DNA from: an uncultured Anaerolineae bacterium
Lineage (GTDB): Bacteria > Chloroflexota > Anaerolineae > Anaerolineales > Villigracilaceae
Length of the DNA: 51,897 nt
Reading direction: 5' to 3'
Assembly (NCBI GenBank): GCA_903822545.1
Contig: CAIJPN010000051.1
Span: forward strand, 1 to 51,897
This document shows, piece by piece, positions 10,388-51,775 of the stretch. Position 1 is the stretch's first letter. Each line of letters begins with the position of its first letter. The notes beneath the pieces are model-generated. The model was not told where the DNA came from, did no database searches, and saw nothing but the letters and a program-made list of their open reading frames with translations. A program made the position numbers and the translations under genes.

Positions 10388-10540
10388 GCGATGATGAGAA
10401 TCGCCAAAATAAAACGAAACCTACCTAAAACGGCCGGTTTCGCTACTGGCTCCCTTTGACCTTATCCCCTTTCGGGAAAAGCGACCAACTTACAGTCAAA
10501 GATCGGCACCTCCGCATTAGCAATTTTGGATGATCACCGC
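10388..10540 (-). ncRNA. Candidate structured leader RNA of the giant surface protein (class not recognised)
   Basis: On the minus strand several helices nest: an outer stem GCGGTGAT (10540-10533) with ATCATCGC (10395-10388, one G-U pair); CTTTGAC (10501-10495) with GTCAAAG (10460-10454), enclosing a TCCC-GAAA-GGGA tetraloop hairpin near 10465-10477; and CGAAACC with GGTTTCG (10442-10436 and 10421-10415). It starts about 15 nt after the predicted transcription start and lies about 350 nt ahead of the ATG, a geometry typical of riboswitches or other cis-regulatory RNAs. I compared it mentally with c-di-GMP-I/II, c-di-AMP, cobalamin, fluoride and M-box consensus motifs and found no convincing match. 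Function is inferred from pairing and position only. Confidence 0.5.
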
Positions 10541-10560
10541 CCTGTAACAAATTTAATATA

Positions 10561-10588
10561 ATTCTATCACCCACAAATATACTGTCAA
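10561..10588 (-). promoter_or_regulatory. Sigma70-type promoter for the giant surface protein
   Basis: Minus strand TTGACA (10588-10583), 16-bp spacer, TAGAAT (10566-10561). The predicted start is near 10554, so the 5' leader before the ATG at 10035 would be about 520 nt. Confidence 0.65.
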
Positions 10589-10654
10589 TGATTTGTTACA
10601 CGATTAGCTTATCAAAATTCGCCCGCACACCTTTCAAAAGCGCAAAGTCCATAT

Positions 10655-10712
10655 GCCATCTCCACCTAAAAAGGCTCATCTTTTAAGATGAGCCTTTTTA
10701 GGTGGAGATGGC
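10655..10712. terminator. Perfect 28-bp inverted repeat containing the tmRNA terminator
   Basis: Arms 10655-10682 and 10685-10712 are exact complements around a 2-base centre. On the minus strand the inner part (AAAAAGGCTCATCTT, AA, AAGATGAGCCTTTTT) is a strong intrinsic terminator for the tmRNA. The outer 12 bases of the right arm are the tmRNA acceptor end itself, so the arm past the terminator duplicates the tmRNA 3' end in inverted orientation. Confidence 0.85.
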
Positions 10713-11098
10713 GGGAATCGAACCCGCGTCCGAAAGATTCGACCACGGAAATCTACGAGCGTAGCCGGTTGAAGTGTGTCGCCGGGGGTCTCTCAACCAG
10801 CAAAAATCACCCCGGCCAGTCATTCAGGCCCGAAAGCCCTCTTTTGCGCCGTTAATGACGTGGCGGCGCAGCATTACCACCTTTGTTACGCCCACTCTCC
10901 CACCGGGTGGAAGACGGGGGAGGCAGACGCCGTCCCTCATGGGACGGGCCGGTCAACTCTCTACTGCTTACGCAGCGAGGGGCATAGCGGCATAGGAAGT
11001 GCTGTTGGCACTTGATTGTTTGCGCTGATTTAACGAGTTCGGCACACTCTCGGCTCGCATTCCGGAGCCAGCCTCCCCCGTCGAAGCCTGTCATCCCC
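10701..11098 (-). ncRNA. ssrA: tmRNA (transfer-messenger RNA)
   Basis: The 5' end GGGGATG (11098-11092) pairs with CATCTCC near 10704-10710 as an acceptor stem, as in other tmRNAs. The 3' part carries a T-arm (GCGGGTTCGATTCCCGC) and ends in A-CC, so the last A of CCA must be added after transcription. The 5' region has the tmRNA signature GACAGGCTTCGACGGGGGAG. The best tag frame is 11009-10968, encoding ANSTSYAAMPLAA then TAA; it begins AN and ends LAA like known degradation tags. The RNA rescues stalled ribosomes together with SmpB, which is not in this window. Length is about 398 nt, normal for the one-piece form. Confidence 0.95.
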
Positions 11099-45503: not shown

Positions 45504-46373
45504 TTACGGCAACCCCTCAAACACCGACTGCGCCGCAAAAGCCACGCCTACCATCGTAGGCCCGGTGTGCGCTGCCAGCACCGGCGACATATAATGCGTG
45601 GGCATCCACTGACAATCAAACACCGGGGCAATCAACTCCTTGAGCTTCGCTGCCGCCACCGGATGATACGAATGCAGCACCTGCACACGCAACTTGGTAC
45701 CCGGTACATGGAACTTCTTCATATTATCCACCAGGCCTTTCATTGCCTGCTCAAACGTGCGCGCCATACCGATCTGCGCATACGTGCCACCCACTTTTTC
45801 CACACTAATCAGGGGGCGGATTTTGAGCATCGAAGCGATCAAGCCTTTCATATGGCTGATACGCCCGCCATGGATAAGATACTTCAAATCATCAATCGTA
45901 TACATGCTCTCGCTGGCATCACCAATACGCTTCACCAAACTGATGATTTCTTCCTTGCTCCAACCAGCCTTCAACGCGCGGGCAGCGGCAGCCACCTGCC
46001 AGCCCATCGCCGCGCACAACGTTTTTGTATCCACCACAGTGATATTCGCATCCGGCACCATCTTGGCCCCGGCATTTGCCGCATTATACGTGCCGCTCAA
46101 CCCTGAAGACATATTTATAGAAAGAATATCCGGGTCTTTTACCGCCAACTGGCGATAAATCTCCGCAAACTCCCCCGCCGAAGGCTGTGATGTGATCGGG
46201 AGGCTGGAAGTTGCCATCAGCTTCTTTTGCAGCTCATCTGCCTGAATATCCTTGCCGCTGGCATAACTTACATTGTCCAGCGTAATCATATGACGCACAA
46301 CGTGAATATCGATTTCGGGCAACAACTCGGGTGGCAGGTACATGTCCATACCAGTGTCAGTAACGATCTGCAT
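45504..46373 (-). CDS. DegV family (fatty-acid-binding) protein
   Basis: 289 residues from an ATG with GGAGGAG upstream; the frame extends to 46478 but that part covers the leader. It begins MQIVTDTGMDM, then ITSQPSAGEF, INMSSGLSGTYNAA, VVDTKTLCAAMG and YLIHGGRISHMKG, standard DegV motifs around the bound fatty acid. Members act as FakB subunits presenting fatty acids to the kinase FakA. No fakA gene is nearby. RNA element 1 and its terminator lie immediately upstream on the same strand. Confidence 0.92.
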   Translation of the reverse strand: MQIVTDTGMDMYLPPELLPEIDIHVVRHMITLDNVSYASGKDIQADELQKKLMATSSLPITSQPSAGEFAEIYRQLAVKDPDILSINMSSGLSGTYNAANAGAKMVPDANITVVDTKTLCAAMGWQVAAAARALKAGWSKEEIISLVKRIGDASESMYTIDDLKYLIHGGRISHMKGLIASMLKIRPLISVEKVGGTYAQIGMARTFEQAMKGLVDNMKKFHVPGTKLRVQVLHSYHPVAAAKLKELIAPVFDCQWMPTHYMSPVLAAHTGPTMVGVAFAAQSVFEGLP

Positions 46374-46456: not shown

Positions 46457-46645
46457 AGCAAAGACGGATGGGGATCACCCATCCGTCAGGTTGCTCTATA
46501 TAGCGGAGGCGAGCCAGGCACCCATTATCTCGTCATGGGAAACGTCTGGCGGGGCCAAGGGCCGGGAGGCCAGTTTCTTACACCTGTGTCTCACCTCGTT
46601 TGTAGCCATCTGGTAAGTTTTCGATAGGAACCTCCTTTCTCTAAC
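46457..46645 (-). ncRNA. Structured RNA element 1 of a three-copy family
   Basis: Reading the minus strand: an AAAGGAGGT (46638-46630) near the 5' end; an outer stem GAGGTGAG/CTCGCCTC (46597-46590 with 46513-46506); CTGGC/GCCAG (46573-46569 with 46550-46546) followed at once by ACGT; a hairpin CCCAT, loop GACGAGATA, ATGGG (46539-46521); then a terminator GACGGATGGG/CCCATCCGTC (46487-46463) with TTTG. The same order occurs in elements 2 and 3 with different stem sequences. It ends about 85 bp before degV, so it could be a free small RNA or a degV attenuator. Family not recognised. Confidence 0.6.
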
Positions 46646-46767
46646 TTGTAAATAGCATACAACAAAACTAACCCTCATACATTAAAAACAAATGATTACA
46701 TTGTAAGGGGTTGTCTGGACACAATATTGGCCTGGGTGGGTATACAATAAATATTAGTGTGTATCAA

Positions 46768-46806
46768 AAGAGCCTTGCGAAGCAAAACCTTCGCAAGGCT
46801 CTTTTG
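46768..46806. terminator. Strong bidirectional hairpin between RNA elements 1 and 2
   Basis: AAAAGAGCCTTGCGAAG, 5-base loop, CTTCGCAAGGCTCTTTT: a 17-bp near-perfect inverted repeat with A/T-rich ends. It would stop any readthrough past element 2, keeping the two RNA units apart. Confidence 0.85.
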
Positions 46807-46810
46807 ACAT

Positions 46811-47005
46811 AAAAAAAACGGATGGGGGGTAACCCATCCGCAGGTACTATATTTTAGGGAGAGAACTCGAGGCGGGCCATATATCGTTTGGGGAACGTCT
46901 GGAGCTTATGTGGGCGAACCACCGCCAGTTTAGCTTGTCTCGGTTCTTCCTGAATGGCTTGCGAGTGATTGTTCGATACGCTACCTCCTTTCGGATTGGG
47001 AACGA
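46811..47005 (-). ncRNA. Structured RNA element 2 of a three-copy family
   Basis: Minus strand: AAAGGAGGT (46991-46983) near the 5' end; outer stem GGAAGAACCGAG with CTCGAGTTCTCTCC (46950-46939 and 46871-46858, two bulges); CTGG/CCAG (46928-46925 with 46902-46899) followed by ACGT; a short hairpin CCA, loop AACGATATA, TGG (46891-46877); then terminator CGGATGGG/CCCATCCG (46840-46819) with eight T residues. The promoter-to-terminator unit is about 195 nt, typical of an independent small RNA. No conserved open reading frame is shared with the other copies. Confidence 0.65.
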
Positions 47006-47012
47006 CCATCTG

Positions 47013-47040
47013 AATATAGAATACAACAATTCCGTATCAA
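47013..47040 (-). promoter_or_regulatory. Promoter of RNA element 2
   Basis: Minus strand TTGATA (47040-47035), 16-bp spacer, TATATT (47018-47013). The overlapping TTGTTGTAT-CTAT string also occurs before element 1 (near 46650-46663), suggesting common promoter ancestry. Confidence 0.6.
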
Positions 47041-47158
47041 ATACATTAAAAAAGCCAAGCAAAAGTGCAAGGTTTTTGGCACAAGAAACAGAGCTGTTGC
47101 TGGCATGGGCAGGTTGGTAAAACCCTGGCGAATATCCAAGCGCCCGGTGGATTCACGC

Positions 47159-47214: not shown

Positions 47215-47964
47215 ATGAACAATAAATGGATTTTTCCCATGCTGATTGTTGCGCTGGCTTGCGCCGGATGCACCAAAACGGCCACTGGCCCACTCCCCAC
47301 CCTAACCATTCCCGCCCCGGAGCTGGGTACACCCACGATGATAACAGCCACCCCGCAACCAACCGCCCCACTCCAACCACCCACCCTGGCAGTGGCCAGC
47401 CCAACCGCCGGGCCATTCAGCCCCTTCCAGGCTGAGTCGATGGTGGATTTGCTCAAATTGCGTGTGGGCCCGGGCTTCCTGTTCGATGCGCTAATGCTGC
47501 TCAACCTGGGAGACCAGCTTACAGTGCAGGGAAAAGCCCCCGGGGCTGAGTGGCTCAAAGTCGAGGCGGCAGATGGCAGCCAGGGCTGGGTTTTTGCCCA
47601 ATTGCTGAAAATCGACCGGGACTTGCGCAATGTTCCCATCATCCAACCGCAGGATGTGGGTGTGCTTAATGGCAAGATCACTGATATGACCGGGCTGCCC
47701 ATCAGCGGTATCCAATTTGCCATTACGCAGGGCGAGGCGCGCAACGCGGCTGTGACCGATGAAAACGGCGAATTTTTTGCTTTTTTCCCTATAGATGTGG
47801 ATGAGGCCTGGCTGGTTTCGTTCGATGGCGTGGTTTGTACCAGCAATACCTGGGTGGATACATCTTGTACCAGCTACAAGAATGGGTACACCGGCGCAGT
47901 TGATCCGGCCAGTCTATCGGTTACGCTGCCCAGCGAAGAACAGCTGACGTTTATGTGGAGATAG
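47215..47964 (+). CDS. Lipoprotein with bacterial SH3 domain and a carboxypeptidase-regulatory-like domain
   Basis: 249 residues. A signal sequence ends in a lipobox-like ALACAGC (Cys16 or Cys19). A Pro/Thr-rich linker spans 20-70. Residues about 75-138 form an SH3b domain (LLKLRVGPGFLFDALMLLNLGDQLTVQGKAPGAEWLKVEAADGSQGWVFAQLL). The C-terminal part, VLNGKITDMTGLPISGIQFAI followed by TDENGEFFAFFP, is a CnaB/carboxypeptidase-regulatory-like beta sandwich. SH3b domains often bind cell-wall peptides, so an envelope role is likely but not shown. Confidence 0.85.
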   Translation: MNNKWIFPMLIVALACAGCTKTATGPLPTLTIPAPELGTPTMITATPQPTAPLQPPTLAVASPTAGPFSPFQAESMVDLLKLRVGPGFLFDALMLLNLGDQLTVQGKAPGAEWLKVEAADGSQGWVFAQLLKIDRDLRNVPIIQPQDVGVLNGKITDMTGLPISGIQFAITQGEARNAAVTDENGEFFAFFPIDVDEAWLVSFDGVVCTSNTWVDTSCTSYKNGYTGAVDPASLSVTLPSEEQLTFMWR

Positions 47965-51600: not shown

Positions 51601-51775
51601 ACAACAAAGGCGGATGGGTGTTTCCCATCCGCCTGATTTTTAGTGCTGAACTGAACTGGAAAAAGAGCGCGCTGAATCACTTTATCGTCGTGATGGACGT
51701 CTGGCGCCCAAGTGTATACTGGCCAGCGGTTAAGTCACACGCTCTTTTCCCCTGAGCGCACGGTTCGGTTATTTA
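51601..51775 (-). ncRNA. Structured RNA element 3 of a three-copy family
   Basis: Minus strand: outer stem AAAAGAGCG with CGCTCTTTT (51748-51740 with 51669-51661, perfect); CTGGC/GCCAG-like CTGG (51726-51722) with CCAG (51704-51701) followed by ACGT; hairpin ATCAC, loop GACGATAAA, GTGAT (51694-51676); then terminator AGGCGGATGGG/CCCATCCGCCT (51634-51608) with TTTG. It lies tail-to-tail with the SGNH gene and is not followed by a minus-strand gene for at least 5 kb, which favours an independent small RNA. It lacks the AAAGGAGGT of elements 1 and 2. Confidence 0.6.

Follow-up and report, generated by a model that had tools for sequence, protein, structure and literature searches.

According to one report (PMC5472188), experimental characterisation exists for very few non-canonical start codons; the same report describes repression by initiation factor IF3 of its own gene, infC (start codon AUU; AUC in Streptomyces), and of sigR (GUC). 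According to excerpts of a second report (PMC13009471), AUA and AUU starts occur in S. aureus together with an extended Shine-Dalgarno sequence, the AUA of infC among them. The locus described here appears to combine a start of this type with a small structured RNA, whose fold a translating ribosome would have to break. It lies in a stretch of 51,897 nucleotides (the window) that makes up contig C51 of a 5.5 Mb genome.

Distribution and fold of the RNA family

The window carries three copies of one RNA family on its minus strand, E1 and E2 (46457-47050) and E3 (51609-51752). All three are found where a preceding sequence-only reading had placed them, on the strand that it gave, and inspection of the sequence showed that the stems, the ACGT, the nine-base loops and the terminators it described are real. 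That reading passed over a pseudoknot and the upstream portion of E1 and E2 (a promoter-like block, a Shine-Dalgarno sequence and a small frame), which E3 lacks. The pattern CCAGACGT-N4..14-ACGANANA has exactly three matches in the window, none being expected from 100 shuffles, and within the window the CGGATGGG..CCCATCCG hairpin has E1, E2 and E3 as its sole sites. A pattern search of 61 genomes yielded a single true relative beyond the window, locus L008 of genome G011; among seven places matching the first pattern beyond the window copies, L004-L007, L009 and L010 lacked stems, Shine-Dalgarno sequence and terminator when judged by eye.

A first covariance model, built on four sequences, matched 69 of 150 genomes of the window's bacterial family at E <= 1; one match, L047, was discarded because by eye it is embedded in unrelated surroundings. 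The second model was built on 35 aligned first-model matches. At E <= 0.01 it detected the RNA in 97 of 152 genomes of the family (about two thirds), in 60 of the 88 of good quality, and in 19 of 26 genera. A covariance-model search of relatives had been named beforehand as a test of the sequence-only reading; covarying homologues are present, and its proposal of a conserved structured RNA family with its own terminator is borne out. No match at E <= 0.01 was obtained in 55 of the 152 genomes, one of which, G101, yet carries a copy below the cut-off (L107). More than one copy was found in seven of the 97 matched genomes: three in G000, and two each in G164 and in five genomes of genus g12.

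A search of 301 genomes of the order at E <= 0.1 matched 48, 45 of them in the window's family. Of the three outside it, only L058 (G334) is convincing; L104 (G312) and L108 (G310) are false matches with neither Shine-Dalgarno sequence nor terminator. Across the phylum, 19 of 301 genomes matched, 12 of these again in the window's family; three of the seven outside matches were read (L065, L068 and L069) and are false, and the remaining four (E 0.04-0.1) were left unread. The range established is therefore the window's bacterial family together with a single genome from a second family of its order. A pattern scan of named genomes gave 59 stretches. The 37 that score with the model all come from genomes with Chloroflexota-type names; the model gives no score to the other 22 (from Haloferax, Novosphingobium and others), which represent chance.

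Searched against the 4227 families of Rfam 15 at gathering scores, neither the window elements nor ten relative loci gave a match, and Rfam scans in E-value mode returned weak matches only, covering hairpins such as the terminator. At these scores the family has no counterpart in Rfam and appears to be a new structured RNA family, as the sequence-only reading had supposed. A literature search, chiefly of openly accessible journals, found neither a description of the family nor any small RNA whose non-AUG start is conserved. The only Rfam finds in the window, a tmRNA and an adjoining c-di-GMP-II-GAG riboswitch (10423-11098, minus strand), lie far from the elements.

Folding z-scores were -5.1 for E1 and -4.1 for E3. 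E2 is unconvincing by itself because its z-score is only -1.25 (24 of 200 shuffles folded at least as well); conviction is supplied by the relatives. Changes on both sides affect 19 of 21 pairs among the 35 first-model matches and 24 of 25 pairs among 92 distinct aligned rows, with 0 of 500 shuffles doing so in either case, although both alignments lean towards the structure because they were fitted to it. The covariation claimed earlier for the stems is thus present in the larger set. In the 92 rows, 85.4% of cells are paired, compared with 73.7% after shuffling and 36-54% in slid controls; pair counts for stems and pseudoknot still include L104, L108 and L109. The outer stem is the clearest helix (92.6% paired, with two-sided changes in all seven pairs of its outer part) and hairpin B the loosest (65.9%).

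Reading of the alignment columns revealed an H-type pseudoknot, absent from the model used to align, in which CGU(U/C) 3' of hairpin A pairs with (A/G)ACG in the loop of hairpin B (CGUU/GACG in E1, CGUU/AACG in E2, CGUC/GACG in E3). Its four pairs are 96.2% paired versus 19-58% in slid controls, and three of the four show two-sided change. The fourth pair is UA in 53 rows, CG in 18 and UG in 11; the others show single C-G to U-A and U-A to C-G exchanges. Conservation of the ACGT and of the loop bases had been taken as the sign of a ligand, protein or antisense contact. This interpretation is replaced, because the two elements pair with each other; a contact additional to this pairing may exist. 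At the level of comparative sequence the fold and the pseudoknot are established, and on the same grounds we consider it practically certain that the copies belong to one structured RNA family with a shared fold.

Features of the three window copies (positions in the window)
Element	Feature	Positions	Strand	Remark
E1	Promoter-like block TTTAATGTA..N..TTGTATGCTAT	46652..46686	-	TTTAATGY conserved upstream of relatives
E1	Shine-Dalgarno GAAAGGAGGT	46630..46639	-	GGAGG in 88/92 matches
E1	Putative micro-ORF, AUC start to TAA	46578..46625	-	Literal reading IENLPDGYKRGETQV
E1	Outer stem 5' strand	46583..46597	-	Within micro-ORF
E1	Hairpin A	46546..46573	-	CTGGC..GCCAG
E1	Pseudoknot strand 1	46541..46544	-	CGTT
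E1	Pseudoknot strand 2	46531..46534	-	GACG, in hairpin B loop
E1	Hairpin B	46521..46539	-	CCCAT..ATGGG
E1	Outer stem 3' strand	46506..46518	-	
E1	Intrinsic terminator hairpin	46463..46487	-	Hairpin + T run
E2	Promoter-like block	47016..47050	-	
E2	Shine-Dalgarno GAAAGGAGGT	46983..46992	-	
E2	Putative micro-ORF, AUC start to TAA	46930..46977	-	IEQSLASHSGRTETS
E2	Outer stem 5' strand	46939..46950	-	Within micro-ORF
E2	Hairpin A	46899..46928	-	
E2	Pseudoknot strand 1	46894..46897	-	CGTT
E2	Pseudoknot strand 2	46885..46888	-	AACG
E2	Hairpin B	46877..46893	-	
E2	Outer stem 3' strand	46858..46871	-	
E2	Intrinsic terminator	46818..46841	-	
E3	Outer stem 5' strand	51738..51752	-	
E3	Hairpin A	51701..51726	-	
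E3	Pseudoknot strand 1	51696..51699	-	CGTC
E3	Pseudoknot strand 2	51686..51689	-	GACG
E3	Hairpin B	51676..51694	-	
E3	Outer stem 3' strand	51658..51671	-	
E3	Terminator	51609..51633	-	

In E3 (51601-51775) core and terminator are intact and the contig end lies 120 nt upstream; Shine-Dalgarno sequence, micro-ORF of the E1/E2 type and promoter-like block are all absent. E3 may have lost its 5' part or may rely on a different one. Between the E2 terminator and the E1 promoter lies a perfect 19-bp inverted repeat with a 6-nt loop (46764-46807); palindromes resembling it occur on contigs C182 and C103 of G000.

Shine-Dalgarno sequence, probable start codon and putative micro-ORF

A strong Shine-Dalgarno sequence precedes 88 of the 89 accepted copies, the exception being E3; the four matches of the 92 that lack GGAGG upstream are E3 and three weak ones judged false. 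A short frame is usual 3' of this sequence, ending just before hairpin A and overlapping the outer stem. Start codons were counted after omission of L104, L108 and L109 (false) and of L102, which duplicates L066; E3 and L058 offered no start that could be counted. At the start position, 4-7 nt behind GGAGG, the 87 remaining copies have AUA (57), AUC (20), ACC (4), AUU (3) or GUC (3), so that AUA, AUC and AUU (AUH) account for 80 and ACC and GUC for 7. AUG, GUG and UUG were found at this position in 0 of 87 copies, though the script permitted them. A codon other than these three thus stands at normal spacing behind a strong Shine-Dalgarno sequence in 87 of the 88 GGAGG copies; the 88th, L058 from outside the family, has CAG at the start position, no AUH, and an AUG 13 nt behind GGAGG. 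The start codon has undergone 13 changes on the tree of cores (Fitch count). Six further copies from named genomes have AUA (3), AUC (2) and GUA (1). At L154 the start-position codon is GTA, followed by GAA AAG CCC CCG, a further non-standard start. L032 has a GUG 2 nt behind GGAGG that shares the frame of its AUA. In some copies, of the IENM and VETM types, codon 4 or 5 (14-15 nt behind GGAGG) is an AUG, which could be the start there.

Within the last 14 nt before hairpin A, 73 stop triplets are in the frame of the start codon, versus 13 and 5 in the other two (435 triplets each). The first stop before hairpin A is in frame in 65 of 87 copies, in another frame in 13 and missing in 9; frame lengths of 36, 39, 42, 45, 48 and 51 nt are all represented, together making up 65 of the 78 first stops. 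The stop, TAA (38), TGA (36) or TAG (3), is close to hairpin A in 77 of the 87 copies and not near it in 10. Among these 10 are L026, one base out of frame relative to its congener L028, and L023, with a stop after 5 codons. A comparison of first stops between frames (77 versus 7 and 11 of 87) was set aside in favour of the 14-nt count, since AUAG and CCTGA bias it by introducing early stops into the other frames. The start-codon pattern and the in-frame stops therefore suggest the AUH codon as the place where ribosomes start; on these comparisons, non-AUG translation is strongly indicated. The label "small RNA" given by the sequence-only reading is probably wrong if taken in a purely non-coding sense, because a short frame opened by a non-AUG codon is present in most copies.

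The same type of start is found in the gene for IF3. IF3 genes were present in 46 of 46 relatives. Of 31 infC loci read, seven were unreadable by script and L115 was unclear; the N-terminal motif was seen in 24, and in 23 of these the start position is occupied by ATA, ATC or ATT. In L111, L123, L126 and L131 an in-frame stop lies a few codons upstream with no standard start between (by eye). The infC gene of the window's genome, on contig C157, reads AAGGAG ATCGCT ATA GCT GAG CAG GAA TTT CGA GTA AAT GAG, where the assignment of AUA as start rests on spacing and on the relatives because the frame is open for 44 codons upstream. As a side observation, infC in Anaerolineales (L110, L111-L140) starts with ATA, ATC or ATT, and standard gene callers probably misplace its start in this order. 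Because the same codons stand behind a Shine-Dalgarno sequence in both, infC and the small RNA are both marked by a start type that IF3 rejects. Codon type, infC of the same genomes and precedent together incline us, by a modest degree, to the view that IF3 controls the frame of the small RNA.

If the frame is translated, its peptide could be the product, the RNA then being a micro-ORF messenger whose fold and terminator form a protective 3' part and whose odd start limits the dose. The frame is indeed retained at many lengths, and peptides in three genera share IETPPExxxxGKxETP. However, the peptides are quite different between groups, and their conserved residues fall in codons that pair with the Shine-Dalgarno sequence or form the outer stem. 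A synonymous excess in codons 2-9 (0.41 versus 0.21) comes mostly from two proline codons, whose retention may reflect pairing with the Shine-Dalgarno sequence; without them it falls to 0.22 versus 0.18, and codons 6-9 show none (0.13 versus 0.17); the excess is confined to codons with such RNA-level roles (Shine-Dalgarno pairing, outer stem). Moreover, the shape of the core is conserved far beyond the needs of a passive tail, and E3 retains the core without the frame. We consider a messenger of this kind unlikely.

Less likely still is a non-coding RNA that binds 30S subunits, with Shine-Dalgarno sequence and near-start codon acting as a ribosome trap or landing site and no productive translation. 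GAAAGGAGGT, which we take to be a long complement of the 16S 3' end, would suit a trap by its extended match to the 16S tail, as would the strict absence of AUG from the start position and the weakness of selection on the peptide; a trap would have no need, however, of stops kept in frame with AUH. The Shine-Dalgarno sequence itself is predicted to be mostly paired (mean unpaired 0.21), which counts against the translated reading. When the segment from the 5' end to hairpin A was folded, GGAGG had a mean unpaired value of 0.33 versus 0.48 with shuffled flanks, being lower in 69 of 87 copies, which points to a degree of sequestration, with pairing partners that vary from copy to copy.

Promoter-like block, terminator and neighbouring genes

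TTTAATGY lies upstream of 72 of 89 copies, and in 63 of these a GTAT-like box follows 17-18 nt on. The resulting promoter-like block, with the consensus TTTTAATGTA-N-TTGTATGAT, is absent from E3 and from a subgroup in genus g9. A stricter form of the pattern finds E1 and E2 only in the whole 5.5 Mb genome, and nothing in the reversed control. The block is not listed by a generic sigma-70 scan and is not a textbook sigma-70 site. Eight loci without TTTAATGY (L044, L056, L057, L061, L076, L083, L086 and L090) have mostly IDTPPE-type frames and come mostly from genus g9; perhaps this subgroup is a second paralogue under another promoter. At the other end, a terminator hairpin with T run is present in 86 of the 88 copies with enough downstream sequence.

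Just behind the terminator lies a convergent aminotransferase gene at 21 of 47 loci; the one product tested matched Pfam Aminotran_1_2. Divergent upstream genes at the 47 loci include PLP-enzyme-like (11) and thiolase-like (15) ones, as labelled by eye. The gene behind E1 in the window is degV (45504-46372), on the strand of the RNA, and a gene for an SH3-domain lipoprotein (47215-47964) is divergent from E2. At L022 and L030 two RNA copies flank an SH3-lipoprotein gene that by eye resembles the one in the window, suggesting an old tandem locus of which E1/E2 remains, E3 perhaps being a far copy.

The position of degV might point to a cis-acting leader, an attenuator or riboswitch for the next gene, and the layout of frame, alternative stem and terminator is leader-like. 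Against this, the next gene varies among genomes and is often the convergent aminotransferase; in the window, E3 has a convergent gene behind it and E2 has E1; and among the 14 gene clusters listed none is a conserved same-strand downstream gene shared by the loci. A leader function is accordingly very improbable. A type I toxin-antitoxin system or another known RNA class is hardly credible: a small frame in a structured RNA and tandem copies in some genomes would fit the former, but the peptides are short, polar and, by eye, not hydrophobic, and Rfam offers no match for the latter.

Proposed mechanism and comparison with known systems

The reading that we prefer, and hold with moderate confidence, is that the family is a stand-alone small RNA that is translated, with IF3 restraining initiation and the translating ribosome opening the outer stem. 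The RNA would be some 190-200 nt long, with its own promoter and its own terminator. A ribosome would bind the strong Shine-Dalgarno sequence, start inefficiently at AUA, AUC or AUU (at ACC or GUC in a few copies), read some 12-17 codons and stop just before hairpin A. The frame and the outer stem overlap: in E1 and E2 the frame contains the 5' strand of the stem, so that a ribosome reading to the stop must open the stem. In the untranslated state the RNA would be fully folded, with its outer stem and hairpin A formed and the H-type pseudoknot locking hairpin B; in the translated state the outer stem would be pulled open by the ribosome. The effector would be either the folded core or its opened 3' half, and the peptide itself is probably of little importance. 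This full two-state switch is put forward tentatively.

IF3, which rejects start codons of this kind, would keep translation of the micro-ORF low; translation would rise with any shortage of IF3 relative to free 30S subunits. With an IF3-rejected start, translation, and hence the fold, should therefore depend on the fidelity of initiation. It seems conceivable, if somewhat speculative, that the RNA is a sensor of initiation fidelity, in which an IF3-gated non-AUG micro-ORF toggles a pseudoknotted three-way-junction RNA, and a shortage of IF3 relative to 30S would be signalled to RNA targets or to the ribosome. If this is true, IF3 acts beyond its own gene by way of a small RNA, and what is read out is initiation as such and not a protein product. 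In a family of about 90 copies, the start codon shifts repeatedly, never to AUG, GUG or UUG, and is coupled to a fold that translation must break. Small frames starting with AUA, AUC or AUU, which the usual gene callers omit, can be found by way of structured RNAs.

Chloroflexi-1 RNA (RF01698) is likewise presented as a structured RNA of Chloroflexota in the relevant passages of PMC2864571; neither it nor other Rfam families match the present elements at gathering score. Leader-peptide attenuators resemble the small RNA in having a short frame whose translation competes with a stem, but here most loci have no regulated downstream gene, and the terminator is the end of the RNA. The dual-function small RNAs SgrS and VcdRP also unite a frame and a structured part in one small transcript; they encode small proteins of normal length, whereas the RNA described here has a micro-ORF with a conserved non-AUG start and a frame that overlaps the main stem. 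A further parallel is with the autocontrol of infC by AUU-type starts and with the GUC start of Streptomyces sigR (PMC5472188 for the GUC precedent), where, as in the small RNA, a strong Shine-Dalgarno sequence lies at normal spacing from a codon that IF3 rejects. The infC genes of the very genomes that carry the family have the same start layout as the small RNA. Yet infC and sigR are ordinary long genes, and here the start belongs to a frame of 12-17 codons within a stand-alone structured RNA.
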